64,000 nt of DNA, taken from Kangiella marina (GTDB lineage Bacteria > Pseudomonadota > Gammaproteobacteria > Enterobacterales > Kangiellaceae). The notes beneath the pieces were generated by a model. That model was not told the DNA's origin. It saw only the letters and a program-made list of their open reading frames with translations, and ran no database searches. Numbering within the stretch: the first letter of the stretch is position 1; the number at the start of each line of letters is the position of its first letter. Positions 1 through 48,404 of this stretch are shown piece by piece. The position numbers were made by a program, and so were the translations under genes. Location of the stretch: NCBI RefSeq assembly GCF_039541235.1, contig NZ_BAABFV010000002.1:124001-188000 (forward strand), written 5' to 3'.

Positions 1-496
1 TGATGGCGTCATCAGCAGACATTAGTTGCAGCCCGCCAAGGTAACAGGGCGCGATATTATCGTAATGCAGGCTGCCGCTGATTTGTGCCTCCATCTTGCC
101 CATCATCATGAGTAGTTCGTGCGGTGTAAACGGTGATTGATACCATTCATTAAGCGCCATAATGGCAGCCACAATTGAGCTGCTGCTGGAGCCGAGTCCA
201 CTGCCGACTGGTAAGTTTTTTGAGAGCTTCAAGGTTAGCGTTTGAGGCTCAACACTTTTTTCAGCAAGCTCAGCACGAAACAGTTCATGACAGTGATGAA
301 TAATGTTATCAGTAACGTCGCTTGGTAATTGTTCGGCAAAAGCACCATCACATACGATTTGATACTGAGAGCTGGCGGCAACTTCAACCACATCGCCGAG
401 TAATGCGCCATCGATAGGAGTAATTGCTGCACCCAATAAATCGTAACCCACCGAAAAGTTACCGATAGAAGCTGGTGCGAATATTTTGATACTCAT
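1..496 (-). CDS. thrB: Homoserine kinase, N-terminal part (cut by window edge)
   Basis: GHMP-family kinase that phosphorylates L-homoserine on the way to threonine. Only the first 165 codons are inside the window. The N-terminus (MSIKIFAPASIGNFSVGYD) and the glycine/serine-rich ATP loop near residues 88-100 (LPVGSGLGSSSSS) are typical of ThrB. The ATG overlaps the thrA stop in an ATGA, so translation is probably coupled to thrA. It should be under the same attenuator. The C-terminus lies outside and cannot be judged. Confidence 0.95.
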   Translation of the reverse strand, partial: MSIKIFAPASIGNFSVGYDLLGAAITPIDGALLGDVVEVAASSQYQIVCDGAFAEQLPSDVTDNIIHHCHELFRAELAEKSVEPQTLTLKLSKNLPVGSGLGSSSSSIVAAIMALNEWYQSPFTPHELLMMMGKMEAQISGSLHYDNIAPCYLGGLQLMSADDAI

Positions 497-40191: not shown

Positions 40192-40542
40192 ATGAATTGG
40201 TTAGAAATGAAGGACTCTGAGGTCATGGCTATTGCAGAGCCAATTATGGATAACTTAATGCAAGCTTCTACCGATATTGATTATGAGCGTCATGTTAGAG
40301 ACTTTAGCGATAATATGAAGCGTATAGTGACGGAAGAAAATTTTGAACAACAATGCAGAAGCTACCAAAAGGTTTTAGGCTATTTTGCAGAAAGGGAGTT
40401 GATGGGCGTTGTTCGAAAAGCAACGGATGCACGAATATATTGGAAGCAATGGTACACGATATCGGGAAACGAATATTTAGCTTTCCTGCATTTAATGGTG
40501 CAAGACGACAAAATTAAGGTTGTGAATGTTTCGGTGTCATAA
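40192..40542 (+). CDS. Hypothetical protein, 116 residues
   Basis: Soluble, mildly acidic, no signal or membrane helix. Predicted alternation of N-terminal helices (MAIAEPIMDNLMQASTDIDYERHVRDF) and C-terminal strands (RIYWKQWYTISGNEYLAFLHLMVQDDKIKVVNVSV) would suit an NTF2/cystatin-like cone fold, as in DUF3887/DUF4019-type proteins, but this is a guess from pattern. GGAG lies 7 nt before the ATG. Separate from neighbours. Confidence 0.7.
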   Translation: MNWLEMKDSEVMAIAEPIMDNLMQASTDIDYERHVRDFSDNMKRIVTEENFEQQCRSYQKVLGYFAERELMGVVRKATDARIYWKQWYTISGNEYLAFLHLMVQDDKIKVVNVSVS

Positions 40543-40652
40543 CGTCACTATTTAATGGCATTAACAAGCTTAAAGAGTGAGTGACTCCCCGAAAATTGTT
40601 GACCCTGAGCAATTCTGCTAATGTACGGGTAAATATCTTATAAAGAACAATT

Positions 40653-42368
40653 ATGAACAAAGGCGCTGGCTGTTTAACCCTATTCGGTGGTGTGTTTTTC
40701 TTAGCCGGATTGGCTATTTTTGTTTGGGGGCTTATCTCAAGCGTTAACGTCTGGCGAGCCCAAGACTGGTCTGTGGTAGATGCGGAAATAATCAGCCTGG
40801 AGCAGGTGTCTTCTACCGACGACGGCAGCACGACTTATGGCGTAAAAGGGACTTACCGCTATATGTTTAATGATCGAGAATACCAATCGAACCAAGTGTC
40901 TTTCTATTCTGGCACGGATAATATCGGCAGCTACCAGCAGCAACTTTATCGGAATCTAAGGCACGCAAGCAGCCAACAGAAACTCAAAGCCTACGTTAAC
41001 CCAGAAAGTCCCAGTGAAAGCGTGCTGGATCGAACCATGCGCTGGGGAATGCTGGGCTTTTATTCCATCTTCTTACTAGTGTTCGGCGGTGTTGGATTGG
41101 GTATTATGTTGTGGGCTCGCTGGGGAGCTAAGCGCTTAGCTCAAAAAGAAGTATTCCAGGAAACTCATAGCGAAGAACCATGGTTGTGGCGTAAAGAGTG
41201 GCAGGGCAATGATTTTAGGTGCCAAACAAAAAGTGCCTTTAAGGTCATGCTCGGCTTCGCCATTATTTGGAATCTGATTTCGCTACCGGGCACTATCGGA
41301 GTCCTTCACGAAGGCAATTATTTTAAGGAGCCATTGCAGCTCTTGGTTTTTTTGTTCCCTTTAGTTGGCTTAGGAATGATTGTCTTGACAGTGATTTATT
41401 ACCGTCGGGAAAAAGCGTTTGGTGACTCCAAGCTCGTGTTACAGCAAACGCCTTTAGTCATTGGTGGGCGTAATTCCGGAAAAATTATTATCAATGGTGA
41501 GCTCAAAGAGCGGGAAGTGATGCTAACCCTGAGCTGTCAAAGAGTGACTCGCCGCCGTAGCGGTAAAGAAACTAGAACTACCACAAAAATACTGTGGCAA
41601 GATGATCAGCGGCTTCTTGTACAACAGCATCAAGCACAACAGTTTGCTGTGGATTTTGACGTAAAAATCCCAGAAGGCTTGCCTGAGTCGAGCGATGCTG
41701 ATGTGAATAATAAAATTGAATGGGTTGTGAAAGTCGAGCAGAAACAAAAAGGCCCAGACTTGCAGTTGATGTTTGAGCTTCCTGCGTTTGTCGTGGCGCA
41801 CAGAATAGAGCCCGAAACGCCGAAAGAAGATTTGTTTAGTGAGCAATCTACAGAAGGCTCAGTAACATCGAAAGGTGGTGATTGGCGATACTTGGATATC
41901 GTAGAGTCGCACTCGAATTACGGAAAAGAGTACTACTTTAAAGCCTTTAGACACAAAGCCTTAGGAATCGGAACCTTAATCTTTGGGCTGGTATTTTTTG
42001 CTATTGGTTTAGGGGTTTTTATGGCGGAGTCTAGTTATTTGTTCCTGATAGCTTTTGGTGGCATGGGACTTCTTATATTTTTTATTGGCCTGAATGTCTT
42101 GTTATTCAGGAGTCGCATTGCCGTGAGCTCTGGAGTGTTAATCTGTAAAAAAGGATCGTTATTCAGCAAAGTTTATCGTTTCAATAAAAGCGACATCGAA
42201 AAAATTACACGTGAAAGTAATATGAGTTCAGGTAATAAGCAGTATTACCACCTTTCTGTGAAGAGCAAAGACGGCACCAAGGAAGTTATTGCGAAGTACT
42301 TATTGAACTCTAATGACGTTGATAATTTTATCGAGCAACTGAATAGTGAACTTGGCATAGCTGGCTAG
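40653..42368 (+). CDS. DUF3592 domain membrane protein
   Basis: 571 residues. N-terminal DUF3592 region: helix (5-30), a strand-rich domain (YGVKGTYRYMFNDREYQSNQV, AYVNPESPSESVL), and a second helix near 145. Further helices lie around 200, 230, 435 and 460, with two cytosolic or periplasmic strand-rich parts between. The C-terminus resembles a PH-like patch (SKVYRFNKSDIEKITRES). Function unknown. Confidence 0.75.
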   Translation: MNKGAGCLTLFGGVFFLAGLAIFVWGLISSVNVWRAQDWSVVDAEIISLEQVSSTDDGSTTYGVKGTYRYMFNDREYQSNQVSFYSGTDNIGSYQQQLYRNLRHASSQQKLKAYVNPESPSESVLDRTMRWGMLGFYSIFLLVFGGVGLGIMLWARWGAKRLAQKEVFQETHSEEPWLWRKEWQGNDFRCQTKSAFKVMLGFAIIWNLISLPGTIGVLHEGNYFKEPLQLLVFLFPLVGLGMIVLTVIYYRREKAFGDSKLVLQQTPLVIGGRNSGKIIINGELKEREVMLTLSCQRVTRRRSGKETRTTTKILWQDDQRLLVQQHQAQQFAVDFDVKIPEGLPESSDADVNNKIEWVVKVEQKQKGPDLQLMFELPAFVVAHRIEPETPKEDLFSEQSTEGSVTSKGGDWRYLDIVESHSNYGKEYYFKAFRHKALGIGTLIFGLVFFAIGLGVFMAESSYLFLIAFGGMGLLIFFIGLNVLLFRSRIAVSSGVLICKKGSLFSKVYRFNKSDIEKITRESNMSSGNKQYYHLSVKSKDGTKEVIAKYLLNSNDVDNFIEQLNSELGIAG

Positions 42369-42414
42369 GGTGTTTGTAACAAAAGCAGACGTCAGCCATC
42401 TGATAGTCATTCTT

Positions 42415-42465
42415 GAGTAAAAGAAAGTATCGAGTAAAAGAAAGTATCGAGTAAAAGAAATCACC
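42415..42465 (+). repeat. 17-bp tandem repeat, about 2.7 copies
   Basis: GAGTAAAAGAAAGTATC at 42415 and 42432, and a third diverging copy at 42449, ending 20 nt before the next start codon. A recent local expansion. Confidence 0.85.
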
Positions 42466-42484
42466 GAACAAAGGGGATGGTCTG

Positions 42485-43708
42485 ATGCAGAAGAAAGTAA
42501 ACTTTACCACAAAAGATGGTTTTGAATTATCTGGAGTGATTCATTTCCCTGAGCATCGAGTGACTCAAGCCTATGCGCTGTTTGCCCATTGCTTTACCTG
42601 CACTAAAAATATCAATTCAGCGGTAAATATCGCCAACGCCTTAGCTGATGAAGGTATTGCCACCTTACGTTTTGATTTTACAGGTCTGGGCGCGAGTAAA
42701 GGTGATTTTGCGGACACCAGCTTTACCACCAATGTGAATGATCTGATCGATGCTGCCAACTTTTTAGCAGCTGATTATGAAGCGCCACAGATTATTATCG
42801 GTCACTCGCTAGGTGGCACAGCAATTCTGGCCGCAGCAAAAGATATCTCCTCGGCCAAAGCCGTAGCGACAATTGGATCTCCTGCATCCCCAGAACACGT
42901 ACTGCATCAACTGGAGCCCGAGTTACAAACGTTAAAAGAGAAAGGCGAAGCGACGATCAAACTCGCCGGACGTCCTTTTACTTTTAAACAAGACTTCGTG
43001 GATGATGTGCAGCAACACAACATCGATATTCACGGGCTCAATAAGGCGCTTATGGTGATGCACTCGCCAATCGACGATACTGTTTCTATCAGCGAAGCCG
43101 AAACGATTTATAAGTCAGCGCTACATCCTAAGAGCTTTATCACTCTGGATAAAGCCGATCACCTCATGAGTAAGACCGAAGATTCTATGTATGCTGGGCA
43201 CGTTTTAGCGAGTTGGGCCAGCCGTTATATCGATACAAAAGAAGAACCCTTATTACCCAAAGCTCAAGATAAAGTTGTGATCGCTGCACAAACTGGAGAG
43301 GGGTTCTTGAATCGCGTTAACGCTAATGGGCATGTTTTTTTAGCTGATGAACCAGAGCGACTCGGCGGCACCAACTTAGGACCAACACCATACGACTTCT
43401 TGTCTACCGCGCTAGGAACCTGTACAGCCATGACCTTAAATATGTATGCGCGCCGCAAAAAGCTCGACGTATCGAAAGTCATCGTTAATGTTAGCCACGA
43501 TAAGGTACACCTTGAAGATTGTGATCATTGTGAAGCCAAAAAAGGGGATAAAAACGGCAAGATCGACAAGTTTCATCGAAGTATCGTTATTGAAGCGGAT
43601 ATCACCGAAGAGCAACGCCAGCGGCTACTCGAAATCGCAGACTTATGCCCGGTGCACAAAACCCTGCACAGCGAATCGATTATTGAAACCGTGTTGGAAT
43701 ATTCCTGA
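42485..43708 (+). CDS. Alpha/beta hydrolase fused to OsmC domain
   Basis: 407 residues. Residues 1-250 are an alpha/beta hydrolase: nucleophile Ser in IIIGHSLGGTA, aspartate in MHSPIDDTV and His in DKADHLMS. Residues 265-407 are an OsmC/YhfA-like domain with the peroxidatic Cys in LGTCTAMTLNMYARRK and the second Cys in DLCPVHKTL. OsmC proteins reduce organic hydroperoxides; the hydrolase part could act on lipid ester substrates. This fusion is known in many bacteria. Strong GGGGATGG site. Confidence 0.92.
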   Translation: MQKKVNFTTKDGFELSGVIHFPEHRVTQAYALFAHCFTCTKNINSAVNIANALADEGIATLRFDFTGLGASKGDFADTSFTTNVNDLIDAANFLAADYEAPQIIIGHSLGGTAILAAAKDISSAKAVATIGSPASPEHVLHQLEPELQTLKEKGEATIKLAGRPFTFKQDFVDDVQQHNIDIHGLNKALMVMHSPIDDTVSISEAETIYKSALHPKSFITLDKADHLMSKTEDSMYAGHVLASWASRYIDTKEEPLLPKAQDKVVIAAQTGEGFLNRVNANGHVFLADEPERLGGTNLGPTPYDFLSTALGTCTAMTLNMYARRKKLDVSKVIVNVSHDKVHLEDCDHCEAKKGDKNGKIDKFHRSIVIEADITEEQRQRLLEIADLCPVHKTLHSESIIETVLEYS

Positions 43709-43711
43709 GCC

Positions 43712-43762
43712 AATACTCTCTTTGATGAGAATACTCTCTTCGACAAGAATACTCTTTGACAA
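43712..43762 (+). repeat. 18-bp degenerate tandem repeat, about three copies
   Basis: AATACTCTCTTTGATGAG, AATACTCTCTTCGACAAG, AATACTCTTTGACAA. The last copy contains the -35 of the dbpA promoter. Confidence 0.75.
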
Positions 43763-43783
43763 CCCCTTGGAGGTGTCTATAAT
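43756..43783 (+). promoter_or_regulatory. Consensus sigma-70 promoter of dbpA
   Basis: TTGACA and TATAAT, both perfect, with a 16-nt spacer; about 118 nt before the start codon. Confidence 0.85.
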
Positions 43784-43900
43784 TCGCATACCTTCAAGAG
43801 CTTGCTCCCAGATCCTACATTCTGGTGCCAGCCAGTAGCTTTATTTCTGCACACCAAGCTTGCTACACTTCATCATAACGACCTCACACGGGACATAACA

Positions 43901-45283
43901 ATGAGCCATGCCGCTTTTACAACGTTAAAGCTTCAACAAGAGCTAATCGCTAATCTAGCCGAGTTAGGATTTGAGGGCATGACCCCAATCCAAGAGCAAG
44001 CGTTACCACACGTACTAGACGGTAAAGATGTCATCGCGCAGGCGAAAACTGGCTCGGGTAAAACCGCGGTGTTTGGGTTAGGCATTCTACAAAAATTAGA
44101 GCCAAAAAATTTCTCGGTGCAATCGGTGGTGATGTGTCCGACGCGTGAACTGGCGGAGCAGGTGGCGGAAGAAATTCGTCGTCTAGCGCGACCCATTCCT
44201 AATATTAAGGTACTAACCTTATGTGGTGGTACGCCGCTAAGGCCACAGGCTGATTCGTTAAAGTTTGGTGCCCATATTGTTGTCGGCACGCCAGGCCGAA
44301 TTTTGGACCATTTAGAGAAGCAAACCTTAGACCTTGATTCAGTCTCAACATTAGTTTTAGACGAAGCGGACAGAATGTTAGACATGGGCTTTGAAGACGC
44401 GATGGAAGCCATCGTCGCTGAAATCCCACGCGCACGACAAACGCTACTATTCAGCGCCACTTACCCTAAAGAGATCCAAGCCATCGCTGATCACGTCATG
44501 GTCGAAGCCGTGTCAGTTAAAGCGGATGATCAGCAAAGCAACCCCAGCATTGAGCAAGACTTTTACCGTATCAGTGATGAAGGAGAGCGTGATGTTGCGG
44601 TGAGATTACTGTTACTACAGTTCCGCCCAGACTCTACAGTGGTCTTTTGTAATACCAAGCGTCACGTTAAAGATTTAACTCAGTATTTAAAAAGTAGCGG
44701 CTTTAGCGTCCTAGCGTTGCATGGCGATCTTGACCAGAAAGAACGTGACCAAGCACTCGTACGCTTCACCAACAACAGCGTCTCGATTATGGTCGCCACC
44801 GACGTTGCGGCTCGCGGGTTAGATATCGACTCACTCGACTTAGTGATTAACTACCATATCGCCAGCGATCCCGAAGTCCACGTGCACCGCATCGGGCGTA
44901 CCGGCCGCGCAGGCAACAAAGGCCACGCCTGCTCAATTGTCATCAATAAAGAAAAGCATAAACTAAAACGCCTTGGCGAATACCTAGGACAAGAATTAGA
45001 AACATTCGGCTTACCCGACACCAAGTTATTAAACCAACCAACCTACAAAGCCCCAATGTCCACCATCCAAATCGACGGCGGCAAAAAGCAAAAACTCCGT
45101 CCCGGCGATATTCTAGGCGCACTCACAGCAGACTACCGTATCGAAGGCAACGACGTCGGCAAAATCCAAATCGCAAACAGCTGGGCCTACGTCGCCGTTA
45201 AAAACGACATCCTCGACGCCGCACTACAACTCCTCAACGGCGGCAAAATGAAAGGCAAAAAGTTCAGAGCACGAAAGATTTAA
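43901..45283 (+). CDS. dbpA: ATP-dependent RNA helicase DbpA
   Basis: DEAD-box helicase acting in large-subunit assembly on 23S rRNA helix 92. 460 residues (E. coli 457). Q motif (GMTPIQEQALP), motif I AKTGSGKT, motif II DEAD, motif III SAT, motif VI HRIGRTGRAG, then the RRM-like rRNA-binding domain (RPGDILGALTADYRIEGNDVGKIQI). Start at MSHAAFTT; the frame is open 33 codons further. The last 160 nt have a diverged second copy at 46076-46240. Confidence 0.96.
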   Translation: MSHAAFTTLKLQQELIANLAELGFEGMTPIQEQALPHVLDGKDVIAQAKTGSGKTAVFGLGILQKLEPKNFSVQSVVMCPTRELAEQVAEEIRRLARPIPNIKVLTLCGGTPLRPQADSLKFGAHIVVGTPGRILDHLEKQTLDLDSVSTLVLDEADRMLDMGFEDAMEAIVAEIPRARQTLLFSATYPKEIQAIADHVMVEAVSVKADDQQSNPSIEQDFYRISDEGERDVAVRLLLLQFRPDSTVVFCNTKRHVKDLTQYLKSSGFSVLALHGDLDQKERDQALVRFTNNSVSIMVATDVAARGLDIDSLDLVINYHIASDPEVHVHRIGRTGRAGNKGHACSIVINKEKHKLKRLGEYLGQELETFGLPDTKLLNQPTYKAPMSTIQIDGGKKQKLRPGDILGALTADYRIEGNDVGKIQIANSWAYVAVKNDILDAALQLLNGGKMKGKKFRARKI

Positions 45284-45358
45284 GCGGTTATTATCCTTAG
45301 CTCGATTAATATGGAAATAAGAGATAAGCGTTGCTACAACACTGTAGCGGTAATTAAT

Positions 45359-45387
45359 TTGAAAAGTGTAACCAGGTTGGTTACAAT
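45359..45387 (+). promoter_or_regulatory. Promoter and operator of the higBA cassette
   Basis: TTGAAA, 17 nt, TACAAT. The palindrome TGTAACC-AGGTT-GGTTACA (45367-45385) fills the spacer and enters the -10, the expected place for autorepression by HigA. Confidence 0.8.
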
Positions 45388-45418
45388 AGGTTGATGGAGT
45401 GTTGGGAAAGGAGTCTGC

Positions 45419-45700
45419 GTGGCGATAAAAAGTTTTAGAAATAAAAAATTAGAAAAGTTCTTCTATGAGGGAGAGACAAAGGGAATTAGGGCAGATCATC
45501 ATAATAAGCTTGAGCGAATTTTGGATAGACTTGATTCGTCAAAAGAGCCAGAGGATATGAGGTTGCCTGGTTACGCACTGCACAAGCTAGAGCCTAAGCA
45601 ACAAGGGCGGTGGGCAGTTAAGGTAAACGGTAACTGGCGTGTTACATTTGAGTTCGATGATGATGATGCCGTTGTAGTTGATTATGAAGACTACCACTAA
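45419..45700 (+). CDS. higB: HigB/RelE-type toxin
   Basis: 93 residues, GTG start with GGAG 5 nt upstream. Typical HigB/RelE-fold motifs: SFRNKKLEKFFYEG, HHNKLERILDRLDSSKEPEDMRLPGYALHKL, GRWAVKVNGNWRVTFEFDD. These are ribosome-dependent mRNA nucleases. The toxin comes before the antitoxin, the reverse of most TA pairs and characteristic of higBA. Not obviously truncated. Confidence 0.93.
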   Translation: MAIKSFRNKKLEKFFYEGETKGIRADHHNKLERILDRLDSSKEPEDMRLPGYALHKLEPKQQGRWAVKVNGNWRVTFEFDDDDAVVVDYEDYH

Positions 45701-45757
45701 ATAGATGATAGCAGGCCACTGGCCTTAAGCGTTAATAACGCTTTGAATGGAGAAGTT

Positions 45758-46051
45758 ATGAGAAGATTGCGTAAACCCACACACCCGGGCTTAGCGTTCA
45801 AACTGGATGTGCTTGAGCCGATTGGGATGTCAATTTCAAAAGCTGCTACTATGTTAGGCATAACAAGAAAGCACTTATCCAACTTTGTTAATGAGCGAGT
45901 TCCTTGCACACCTGACTTAGCTCATCGCTTAGCTATTTTTACCGAAACAAGTGTGGCTTCTTGGCTAAATATGCAAAATGCTTTGAATATTTGGGAAGAG
46001 GAACAGAAAGGCGACATTCCTGAAGTCGAAAGGCTGGAAGCTTTAGCTTGA
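45758..46051 (+). CDS. higA: HigA-type antitoxin
   Basis: 97 residues with an XRE-family helix-turn-helix (MSISKAATMLGITRKHLSNFVNERVPCTPDLAHRLAIFTETSVASWLNMQ). PTHPGLAFKLDVLEPIGMS is the standard HigA/VapI start. It neutralises HigB and should bind the palindrome in the promoter. Start at the ATG after GGAG, 57 nt past higB. Confidence 0.93.
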   Translation: MRRLRKPTHPGLAFKLDVLEPIGMSISKAATMLGITRKHLSNFVNERVPCTPDLAHRLAIFTETSVASWLNMQNALNIWEEEQKGDIPEVERLEALA

Positions 46052-46075
46052 AAATATAAAGCTATATTTACATTG

Positions 46076-46240
46076 ACCAGCAATTATCGCATCGAAGGCA
46101 GCAACGTTGGCAAAATCCAAATCGCCAACAGCTGAGCCTACGTCGCCGTCAAAACCGACATCCTCGACGCCGCATTACAACTTCTTAACGGCGGTAAAAT
46201 GAGAGGCAAAAAAAGTTTAGAGAAAGGAAAGTTTAAATAA
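46076..46240 (+). pseudogene. Displaced remnant of a dbpA 3' end
   Basis: Encodes NYRIEGSNVGKIQIANS, stop, AYVAVKTDILDAALQLLNGGKMRGKK, matching the last ~50 codons of the intact DbpA gene at 45283. DNA identity is about 85 percent, with many changes at third codon positions (TAC/TAT, CGT/CGC, GTC/GTT, CTC/CTT). It therefore evolved as coding DNA before TGG became TGA. With the intact end it brackets the higBA cassette, as if foreign DNA entered the end of dbpA and brought its own replacement C-terminus. Confidence 0.85.
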
Positions 46241-46288
46241 ATGTGTCTGTCTCCATCAACTCTATAGAACTATTGAGGATTAAACTTT

Positions 46289-46870
46289 ATGAAATACATA
46301 GTGTTGATAACGTTACTAGTCTCAGTAATGCATCATTCTAGAGGGGAACAATCACCCGAAAATCTGATGATGCAGAGCCGTATTTATACCGAAGCTTATT
46401 ATAGATACTTTGACTTAAACTCAAGCAGTAACCACGACTTATATTTTTTACAGACTGGAACGAAAAATTCAGAAACAAAGCTGTATTTATATAACTTTAA
46501 GGATAAAAAAATAGATGCTTTACATTCTCTAGGAAAGCCAATTAAGGAGCAGTTTTATGATATTCTCAATACTTCGCCAAAATTGATGTTCGTTGAAGCA
46601 GCTAAGCTAGTTGAAGTGGAAAAATTTGAGTTTGATAGTACAAACTGCTCAGAAGTGTTTGAAATGCTTAATTACATTAATCTCCCCTTTGATGCGGAGG
46701 AAATAACACCTCTTGAAATCAAGTTTGACGCACCGAGTTATATTGTTCAGCAGAGAAAGGGAAAAGAGGAGCTTATGATTGAGACGGTATCCACACTTAT
46801 TAGTTCTGTGACTATAGTTAAAGAACTAATAACAATAAATAATATGCTTGTGGACTGTATAAAGAAGTAA
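46289..46870 (+). CDS. Exported protein of unknown function
   Basis: 193 residues. Signal peptide (2-19, YIVLITLLVSVMHHSRG) and a mature part rich in Glu, Lys and aromatic residues (TEAYYRYFDLNSSSNHDLYFLQTG). Two cysteines (NCSEVF, and VDCIKK at the end). Clearly more AT-rich than the housekeeping genes around it, consistent with acquisition together with the higBA cassette. No family recognised. Confidence 0.65.
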   Translation: MKYIVLITLLVSVMHHSRGEQSPENLMMQSRIYTEAYYRYFDLNSSSNHDLYFLQTGTKNSETKLYLYNFKDKKIDALHSLGKPIKEQFYDILNTSPKLMFVEAAKLVEVEKFEFDSTNCSEVFEMLNYINLPFDAEEITPLEIKFDAPSYIVQQRKGKEELMIETVSTLISSVTIVKELITINNMLVDCIKK

Positions 46871-47023
46871 TGCTAGACCGCTGTCACTGAGGAGGTTATT
46901 TTGTAAGAAAATGAAGCCTAATATACTGATTTGGTAGGACAGTTATAAGTAAAGTATCAGTATGGTTTTGTTAAAGCCCTTTGCTCGTGGACTTAGGGTG
47001 GACTTACAGAAAACTTCATAAAT

Positions 47024-47059
47024 AAAAAAGGCTTACAGATTGCTCTGTAAGCCTTTTTT
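47024..47059. terminator. Terminator of tRNA-Met, symmetrical
   Basis: AAAAAAGGCTTACAG-ATTGCT-CTGTAAGCCTTTTTT; serves the minus-strand tRNA and could end the plus-strand transcript of the 46289 gene. Confidence 0.88.
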
Positions 47060-47063
47060 AATA

Positions 47064-47140
47064 TGGTAGCTATGGGTGGACTTGAACCACCGACCCCAGC
47101 ATTATGAATGCTGTGCTCTAACCAGCTGAGCTACATAGCC
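47064..47140 (-). tRNA. tRNA-Met (CAT), elongator
   Basis: 77 nt including encoded CCA. Acceptor GGCTATG pairs with CATAGCT (one G-T at the end). D-arm GCTCAGCTGGTTAGAGC, anticodon stem CAGCA/TGCTG with loop TTCATAA, T-arm GGTGG-TTCAAGT-CCACC. The base-paired 5' end (G at position 1) excludes an initiator tRNA. Confidence 0.95.
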
Positions 47141-47249
47141 TTAATTCAGTGGCGCGTATTTTCGTGATTTCGGGGCTTTATGTCAAGCCTAAAACGATAA
47201 AACAATCAGATTTTTTTCTTTAATCGGAAGTCCGATCTTTATGAGCCGA

Positions 47250-47281
47250 GATTACCCGGTCCAGCCGGGTAATGACGTGCT
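47250..47281. repeat. Palindromic intergenic repeat near ychF
   Basis: TTACCCGG-TCCAG-CCGGGTAA followed by TGACGTGCT, i.e. AGCACGTCA plus hairpin on the minus strand. The same AGCACGTCAT leader precedes the hairpin at 31131. Confidence 0.65.
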
Positions 47282-47312
47282 ATTTTAAAATATACGCCTT
47301 TTTTGTAATCGG

Positions 47313-48404
47313 TTATACGTTGAATCGGAAGTGCATGACGTCGCCGTCTTTGACGATGTAGTCTTTGCCTTCTAGGCGCCATTTTCCGGCTTCTTTGGCG
47401 CCTGCTTCGCCGTTTCCAGCGATGTAGTCGTCATAAGCGACGACTTCGGCGCGGATAAAGCCTTTTTCGAAGTCTGTGTGTATCACGCCAGCAGCTTGTG
47501 GGGCTGTGGCGCCGACTTTAACTTGCCATGCGCGAACTTCTTTTTCGCCAGCAGTGAAGTAGGTCTGTAGTTCTAGTAAGTTGTAACCAGCGCGGATTAC
47601 GCGGTTTAAACCTGGCTCTTCTTGGCCTAAGTCGGCTAGGAAGTCGATTTTGTCTTCATCATCCAGCGCAGCGATTTCAGATTCGATAGAGGCGCAGATA
47701 GGCACCACTTCGGCGTTTTCTGAGGCTGCGAACTCGCGAACTTGGTCTAAGAGAGGGTTGTCTTCAAAACCATCTTCGCTGACGTTGGCGATGTACATAG
47801 TTGGCTTAATCGTGATCAGCTGAAACTTGCGCATCAGTTTGCGCTCGTCTTTGTCCAGGTCCATGCTACGAAGGGCGTTGCCTTCGTCTAAGCAGGCTTT
47901 GGCTTTCTCTAACAGCTCTAATTCGATTTTAGCGTCTTTGTCGCCGCTTTTAGCGACTTTCGCCGTTTTAATCATGCGCTTTTCTACCGCTTCTAAATCC
48001 GCTAGTGCTAATTCGGTGTTAATGGTGTCGATGTCAGCCAGTGGATCAACTTTACCATCTACGTGTACGACGTCGTCGTTGGTGAAGCAGCGAACCACGT
48101 GGGCGATAGCGTGAGTTTCGCGGATGTTGGCGAGGAACTTGTTACCTAAGCCTTCGCCTTTCGAGGCGCCTGCCACTAGGCCTGCGATGTCTACGAATTC
48201 CATCGTGGCCGGCAAGATCTTCTGTGGCTTAGCAATTGCTGAAATAGCGTCTAAACGCGGGTCAGGAATTGGCACCACGCCAGTATTCGGTTCAATAGTA
48301 CAGAAAGGGTAGTTGGCAGCGTCGATGCCTGCGTCAGTCAGTGCATTGAAGAGTGTTGATTTTCCAACATTGGGCAAGCCCACGATTCCACAATTTAGTG
48401 CCAT
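47313..48404 (-). CDS. ychF: Redox-regulated ATPase YchF
   Basis: Obg-family P-loop protein (OLA1 homologue) that binds ribosomes and prefers ATP. 363 residues, standard length. G1 [12 protein letters not shown], switch region [11 protein letters not shown]3 DIAGLV, the NVSED (in place of NKxD) motif that explains ATP preference, and the C-terminal TGS domain ([20 protein letters not shown]). Last gene of prs-rplY-pth-ychF, 26 nt after pth. Confidence 0.97.

Follow-up and report, generated by a model that had tools for sequence, protein, structure and literature searches.

A higBA toxin-antitoxin pair between an intact and a decayed dbpA 3' end, in a variable slot of Kangiella genomes

Prophages that restore the end of the gene in which they insert, such as e14 in icd, carry an integrase and use a recurrent attachment site. 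A comparable anatomy of working gene end, cargo and displaced gene end is found in Kangiella marina, in a stretch of 64,000 nucleotides (nt) of contig NZ_BAABFV010000002.1 (positions 124,001 to 188,000, forward strand; hereafter the window, numbered from its first letter), where a complete higBA toxin-antitoxin (TA) pair lies between two copies of the 3' end of the RNA helicase gene dbpA. Neither the integrase nor the recurrent attachment site of the e14/icd type was found here, in genome-wide searches with PF00589 and PF00239 and in 67 dbpA loci and 19 other Kangiella genomes.

The core-gene hotspots described in parts of PMC5635113 (2017) resemble this locus in their variable slot between fixed core genes, in their flanking-gene breakpoints and in an occupant, here higBA, without mobile-element machinery. 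The locus differs from them in that the flanking gene stays partly duplicated, a state which a clean double exchange would presumably not leave. PMC3240628 deals with E. coli, where a diagnostic PCR product indicated partial lacZ duplication in 56 of 60 selected integrants; the duplications in 14 sequenced clones were 109-950 bp long and were attributed to a single crossover of a circular molecule short of part of the homologous segment. That system of single crossover, or homology-facilitated illegitimate recombination, shares with the locus an insert accompanied by a partial gene-end duplication (about 165 nt here), but it involves a laboratory plasmid conjugated into E. coli, whereas the event here is old. 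Taken together, the two sources account for the anatomy with no integrase, and both ingredients of the explanation offered below are already published. The locus is thus a new example that combines an ordinary TA pair, a known sort of hotspot and a mechanism with precedent; titles and beginnings of abstracts gave no account of duplicated dbpA ends flanking a TA pair or of the Kangiella slot, which does not establish absence from print.

The locus is composed of the following features.

43901-45283, forward strand: dbpA, an intact gene for an ATP-dependent RNA helicase (705.4 bits with the NCBIfam DbpA equivalog; PF00270, PF00271, PF03880)
45119-45283, forward strand: working dbpA 3' end, copy L (direct repeat with 46072-46240)
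45284-45418, forward strand: higBA leader with predicted promoter and palindrome (sequence motifs)
45419-45700, forward strand: higB, RelE-like toxin of a type II TA pair (PF05015, E 4.5e-23; solved HigB chains, E 2.7e-18)
45758-46051, forward strand: higA, helix-turn-helix (HTH) antitoxin, with a possible TTG start at 45743 (TIGR02607; solved HigA relatives)
about 46072-46240, forward strand: copy R, the remnant of a dbpA 3' end (carries a TGA at 46133-46135, 2 inserted nt and 18 private substitutions)
46289-46870, forward strand: ORF193, an open reading frame (ORF) for an unknown protein (84% protein identity to G014, the genome of locus L033; DNA 89.6% over 46074-46863)

The dbpA gene, for which the DbpA equivalog is the top NCBIfam match, runs from an ATG at 43901 to a stop at 45281-45283, and a second copy of its last ~165 nt, on the same strand, begins about 20 nt past the stop of higA, so that a duplicated dbpA end around a complete higBA is confirmed. 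The two copies are 85.7% identical over 161 nt by BLAST (E 7e-42), close to the 85 percent given in the original prediction, and this likeness is therefore not due to chance; the ungapped core of the direct repeat pairs 45134-45261 with 46085-46212 (128 nt, 89%). Counted by columns, there are 28 substitutions in 164 shared columns, for which reason the event is regarded as old, and a 2-nt insertion in the remnant. The site (C2:169118-170240) is distant from both ends of its 751,185-nt contig, one of two in a Kangiella genome of 2,510,416 bases, and an assembly join is therefore unlikely.

Four near relatives were compared with the window: SAG07, G006, K. taiwanensis and MAG4, a Kangiella metagenome-assembled genome (loci L033/L004, also G014 and L135) whose DbpA protein is 96% identical to that of the window; the dbpA-end alignments leave aside six more distant genomes (G010, G012, G015, G016, G017 and G020). 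Among the six sequences formed by the two copies and these relatives, private differences number 18 in the remnant, 5 in copy L and 2 to 6 in each relative. Those of the remnant fall on codon positions 1, 2 and 3 in the numbers 5, 5 and 8, and the 10 of 18 at positions 1 and 2 point to decay. An in-frame TGA now replaces the TGG tryptophan codon of dbpA. Upstream of the insertion, 28 of 46 codons are identical to those of copy L, 11 have synonymous changes and 7 a changed sense or stop, so the earlier statement that the differences are mostly synonymous holds only loosely. The private changes of the remnant are mostly unconstrained decay, which perhaps followed a period as a working gene.

In a search with the last 54 DbpA residues, 18 of 20 Kangiella genomes match, and a further close match, at 83% across residues 2-49 and containing one TGA, occurs in the genome of the window alone; G007 shows two extra marginal matches of 32 residues (E 0.004). 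No second dbpA end occurs in the 67 loci around dbpA, 60 of them outside Kangiella, which remained after 12 of 79 without a usable match reaching residue 440 were dropped. In MAG4 (L033), the dbpA end runs straight into what lies downstream of the remnant in the window, ORF193 included; window positions 46074-46863 align end to end with L033 7223-8010 (89.6% over 792 nt), where the L033 side begins inside the dbpA end. The remnant is thus continuous with its own downstream sequence as in L033, so that copy L and higBA were interposed, or the join was made the reverse way. This uninterrupted site in a relative bears out the predicted TA-bearing insertion at the dbpA end: the remnant is no unrelated repeat and the arrangement is not common to all genomes.

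The right side of the site is closed by two conserved features.

47064-47140, reverse strand: tRNA-Met (CAT), right edge of the slot (ARAGORN; two relatives carry further copies of its 3' end)
47313-48404, reverse strand: conserved right neighbour, which we take to be ychF (protein 89.5-99.4% identical across the 9 further stretches that hold it)

Among 18 Kangiella stretches surveyed, that of the window included, 10 hold both dbpA and ychF, at a distance of 2036-10503 nt and with tRNA-Met near ychF in each, and by their ORF lists no two stretches have identical full content. The interval dbpA–tRNA-Met–ychF (45284-47312 in the window), with fixed neighbours and differing cargo, is a core-gene-flanked hotspot of horizontal gene transfer. 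Eight of ten slot proteins tested, from seven genomes, match defence models in PADLOC or Pfam: these are GmrSD-like in SAG07, SIR2-STAND in K. taiwanensis, SIR2 and HerA in G009, AAA and RloB in G013, an AAA protein in K. aquimarina and E1-E2-JAB in G006, while a 229-aa slot protein of SAG07 has no match in PADLOC or Pfam and the tenth protein is a tyrosine integrase of MAG4. The higBA pair is one more occupant of this defence and TA slot, which is a good place to seek defence genes in Kangiella. In K. shandongensis (L133 2030-7404), dbpA is followed by a TA-like pair of the TacA/GNAT type and two integrase-family pieces, in a slot whose end is not closed.

The explanation proposed is that recombination within the dbpA end, with no site-specific integrase involved, brought higBA in and left a partial duplication, a reading that is about evenly poised between right and wrong. 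The starting genome would have had dbpA followed directly by ORF193, as in L033, and the incoming DNA would have carried a complete higBA with its own promoter/operator together with the dbpA 3' end of a related Kangiella. Joining would have taken place by homologous recombination inside the dbpA end, which needs no site-specific recombinase, either by single crossover, the fragment having circularised, or by one homologous joint combined with one illegitimate joint right after higA. Two dbpA ends in direct repeat would result, of which the one in frame with the body of the gene stays working and the other decays, and the slot between dbpA and tRNA-Met/ychF would be a standing hotspot where defence and TA genes turn over. 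The explanation draws on the anatomy, the uninterrupted site, the lack of a second such case in the genus sample, the variability of the slot, the decay of the remnant and the breakpoints within dbpA, all of which are observed. We infer which end arrived, from what donor and through which sort of crossover. If the explanation is right, the structure is a scar left when one piece of cargo arrived at a defence hotspot. A clean double exchange would presumably leave no trace of the route of entry; the partial flanking duplicate opens the question of which of the two joints relied on homology.

Several observations weigh against this explanation. An arrangement of dbpA and higBA without the remnant was found in no genome, so no donor was identified. 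The tree of the two ends (165 nt, TIM2+G4 chosen in advance, seven constrained trees compared by the approximately unbiased (AU) test) leaves the remnant unplaced, with p-AU of 0.76 for MAG4, 0.524 for a position outside the five-lineage group, 0.39 for SAG07, 0.286 for G006 and 0.253 for copy L, which allows the two copies as sisters; the remnant with K. taiwanensis is the sole rejected tree (p-AU 0.0195). Copy L differs from the four relatives at 9-15 of 165 positions and the relatives differ among themselves at 11-17, so the working end looks ordinary and without foreign signal. The one clear exchanged tract of the window, shared with SAG07 (40501-44803), covers the 5' two-thirds of dbpA and stops 480 nt short of its end. 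The fourfold-site differences between the window and MAG4 are fewer in ORF193 (7 of 50) than in ychF (52 of 163; p 0.018) and in dbpA nt 1-1140 (76 of 162; p 2e-5). This lower divergence suggests that ORF193, the right-hand neighbour, was probably transferred between lineages after the species split, and the remnant side may then be the newcomer.

The original prediction held that the two ends came from different dbpA lineages, which is weakly supported. No site (0) is shared exclusively by both copies against all four relatives, which favours separate lineages or an early event, with numbers that are small; the contrast of 5 and 18 private differences points the same way, and the tree, in which the copies as sisters are not rejected, does not. 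These results bear also on a duplication of the dbpA end in place, by slippage or by break repair that captured higBA, with one source gene for both copies. It agrees with the tolerated sister placement, but exclusive states shared by the copies would be expected unless the duplication were as old as the radiation of these species, and with none found, 5 differences private to copy L and small numbers throughout, such an origin is improbable.

A different history would make the right side the newcomer, with dbpA and higBA already present and a fragment of another lineage, from its dbpA end through ORF193, joined after higA and anchored by homology in tRNA-Met/ychF; the remnant would then have been dead on arrival and no native end displaced. 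The low divergence of ORF193 fits this history, although it is not significantly below that of the dbpA end (9 of 36 fourfold sites, window against MAG4; p 0.26), as do the ordinary copy L and the start of the remnant so close to the higA stop. Against it, the remnant has 1 exclusive shared state with MAG4, compared with 2 with SAG07, 1 with K. taiwanensis and 0 with G006; at the fourfold sites of ychF, all four relatives stand equally far from the window (45-54 of 161-164); and higBA straight after dbpA was not seen elsewhere, the sole close higB of the genus being that of G013 (70%), at a different place, with a 31% match in G019 as the only other. This history is considered unlikely. The predicted direction itself, a foreign working C-terminus and a native remnant, may be right but is not supported: copy L is ordinary and the sign of transfer lies in ORF193. 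Of the checks then suggested, the comparison of dbpA 3' regions yielded the uninterrupted form of L033 and the phylogeny of the copies left the remnant without a place.

ORF193 has no Pfam or NCBIfam match, and a close homologue is present in 1 of 19 other Kangiella genomes (G014, 84%), with G003 and G018 at 22-27%. In the 23 nt just past the dbpA stop, compared by eye in 12 aligned Kangiella sequences, nothing is common except between the remnant and MAG4. K. taiwanensis was considered as the source of the right flank and rejected, as its 91.7% against 87.4% for SAG07 refers to unequal lengths and the same bins give 83-92% for all four relatives.

In the wider identity profile (32-63 kb, 750-nt bins, BLAST pieces below 200 nt dropped), the four relatives are broadly alike in their closeness to the window, differing by no more than about 9 points in any comparable bin, except at 40.5-45.0 kb, where identity is 89.6-96.4% with SAG07 and 74.3-83.9% with the other three. 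The affinity of the window to SAG07 falls at dbpA nt 903 (44803), a breakpoint reached by 4 of 2000 permutations against G006 and 0 of 2000 against K. taiwanensis; tested against MAG4 it lies at nt 1023 (2 of 2000). With SAG07 as the tested sequence, the counts are 0, 1 and 42 of 2000 permutations, and a one-directional run test is significant for the pair of SAG07 and K. taiwanensis only (0 of 5000 shuffles; the remaining two give 172 and 255 of 5000). The tract and its breakpoints inside dbpA show that the gene recombines between species, the exchanged piece being the 5' two-thirds and the direction either way. A foreign C-terminus, read at one stage from the breakpoint near nt 903, was rejected, because the wider profile places the special tract at 40.5-44.8 kb and makes the dbpA end background. 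Homogenisation of the dbpA end is not claimed: nt 1141-1380 have lower fourfold differences than nt 1-900, yet only one of three comparisons with the window falls below 0.05 (p 0.054, 0.115 and 0.021).

A bolder proposal is that the dbpA end of Kangiella is a standing, integrase-free landing pad, on which defence or TA cargo brings a working ending, re-ends the gene through homologous recombination and pushes the old ending downstream; it is a long shot. If it were true, the RNA-binding tail of the helicase would be repeatedly swapped between species together with cargo, and the window would hold a displaced tail still present.

As a separate observation, G006 and MAG4, which share the tRNA-Met element, also share a 5' tract of dbpA with a breakpoint at nt 414-433, and their third positions differ at 10 of 100 in nt 1-300 and at 39 of 100 in nt 301-600.

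In its slot, MAG4 has a 413-aa tyrosine integrase (Pfam), G006 has a near-identical ORF start, and both slots contain 45-nt copies of the tRNA-Met 3' end, so this kind of occupant probably arrives by way of a tRNA integrase. The higBA locus could be imagined as the relic of an integrase element that attached at the dbpA 3' end, brought a replacement end and lost everything except higBA. Its working end, cargo and displaced end match such an element, and the slot holds the integrase in MAG4, the near-identical ORF in G006 and the integrase-family pieces in K. shandongensis; however, the elements of MAG4 and G006 repeat the tRNA-Met 3' end and not dbpA, no second dbpA end occurs in the 67 loci or, apart from the two marginal matches of G007, in the other 19 Kangiella genomes, and the dbpA end matches 1 of 50,697 phage records, where it is annotated as a helicase gene. 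At E 0.001, the slot and its surroundings gave no match to a tyrosine recombinase or resolvase, intact or broken, and little likelihood is given to the relic. Genome-wide, PF00589 has three tyrosine-recombinase matches, about 280 kb away at the nearest on the same contig or on the other contig, and PF00239 (resolvase) has no match, in keeping with the earlier remark that no integrase is in sight.

Integrons offer another route, as higBA pairs occur as integron cassettes. In 45201-46300 on the forward strand, the core-site motifs GTTRRRY and RYYYAAC occur once each, at 45853 and 45877, positions that lie within higA and off the junctions of higBA, where no core site was found, and insertion as a cassette is highly improbable. 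The ComEC and DprA families are present in the host genome and match also in 10 and 11 of 14 control genomes, E. coli among them, so that their presence says little about competence.

The pair itself is, by its family matches, an ordinary member of the HigBA type II systems, with no notable difference from them: it has a toxin-first operon, the HigB and HigA families and a promoter palindrome. Residues 1-93 of HigB match the HigB structures 4mct (E 2.7e-18) and 4px8, with no match in the NCBIfam search, and HigA scores 76.2 bits with TIGR02607 (antidote_HigA; cut-off 47.7) and 20.5 with Pfam HTH_3, under its cut-off of 23. Both genes follow the direction of dbpA, higA directly downstream of higB. 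The leader has a predicted sigma-70-like promoter (TTGAAA-17-TACAAT, 45359-45387), the sole forward promoter-like site; the region 45250-46300 has 2 promoter-like sites in all, no excess over a shuffle mean of 1.9. The palindrome TGTAACCA-N3-TGGTTACA (45367-45385) overlaps this predicted promoter, and its core AACCA-N3-TGGTTACA is unchanged before higB in 5 of 5 aligned sequences, L117 and L118 being alike there; the overlap and the invariant core suggest that the pair probably brought its own autoregulated promoter.

The HigB of G013 is also the closest among 40 family genomes searched. HigA reaches at most 45% elsewhere among 369 class genomes, in a match list that shows no other Kangiella, and all 336 plasmid records matching HigB are below 60%. 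No direct repeat of at least 30 nt was found in four other higB loci (L116, L117 in part, L118 and L120). The first of these is the G013 locus, with higBA at L116 1172-1779, next to an ORF that is presumably hemL. In IMG/VR, five contigs match HigB at 51-52%.
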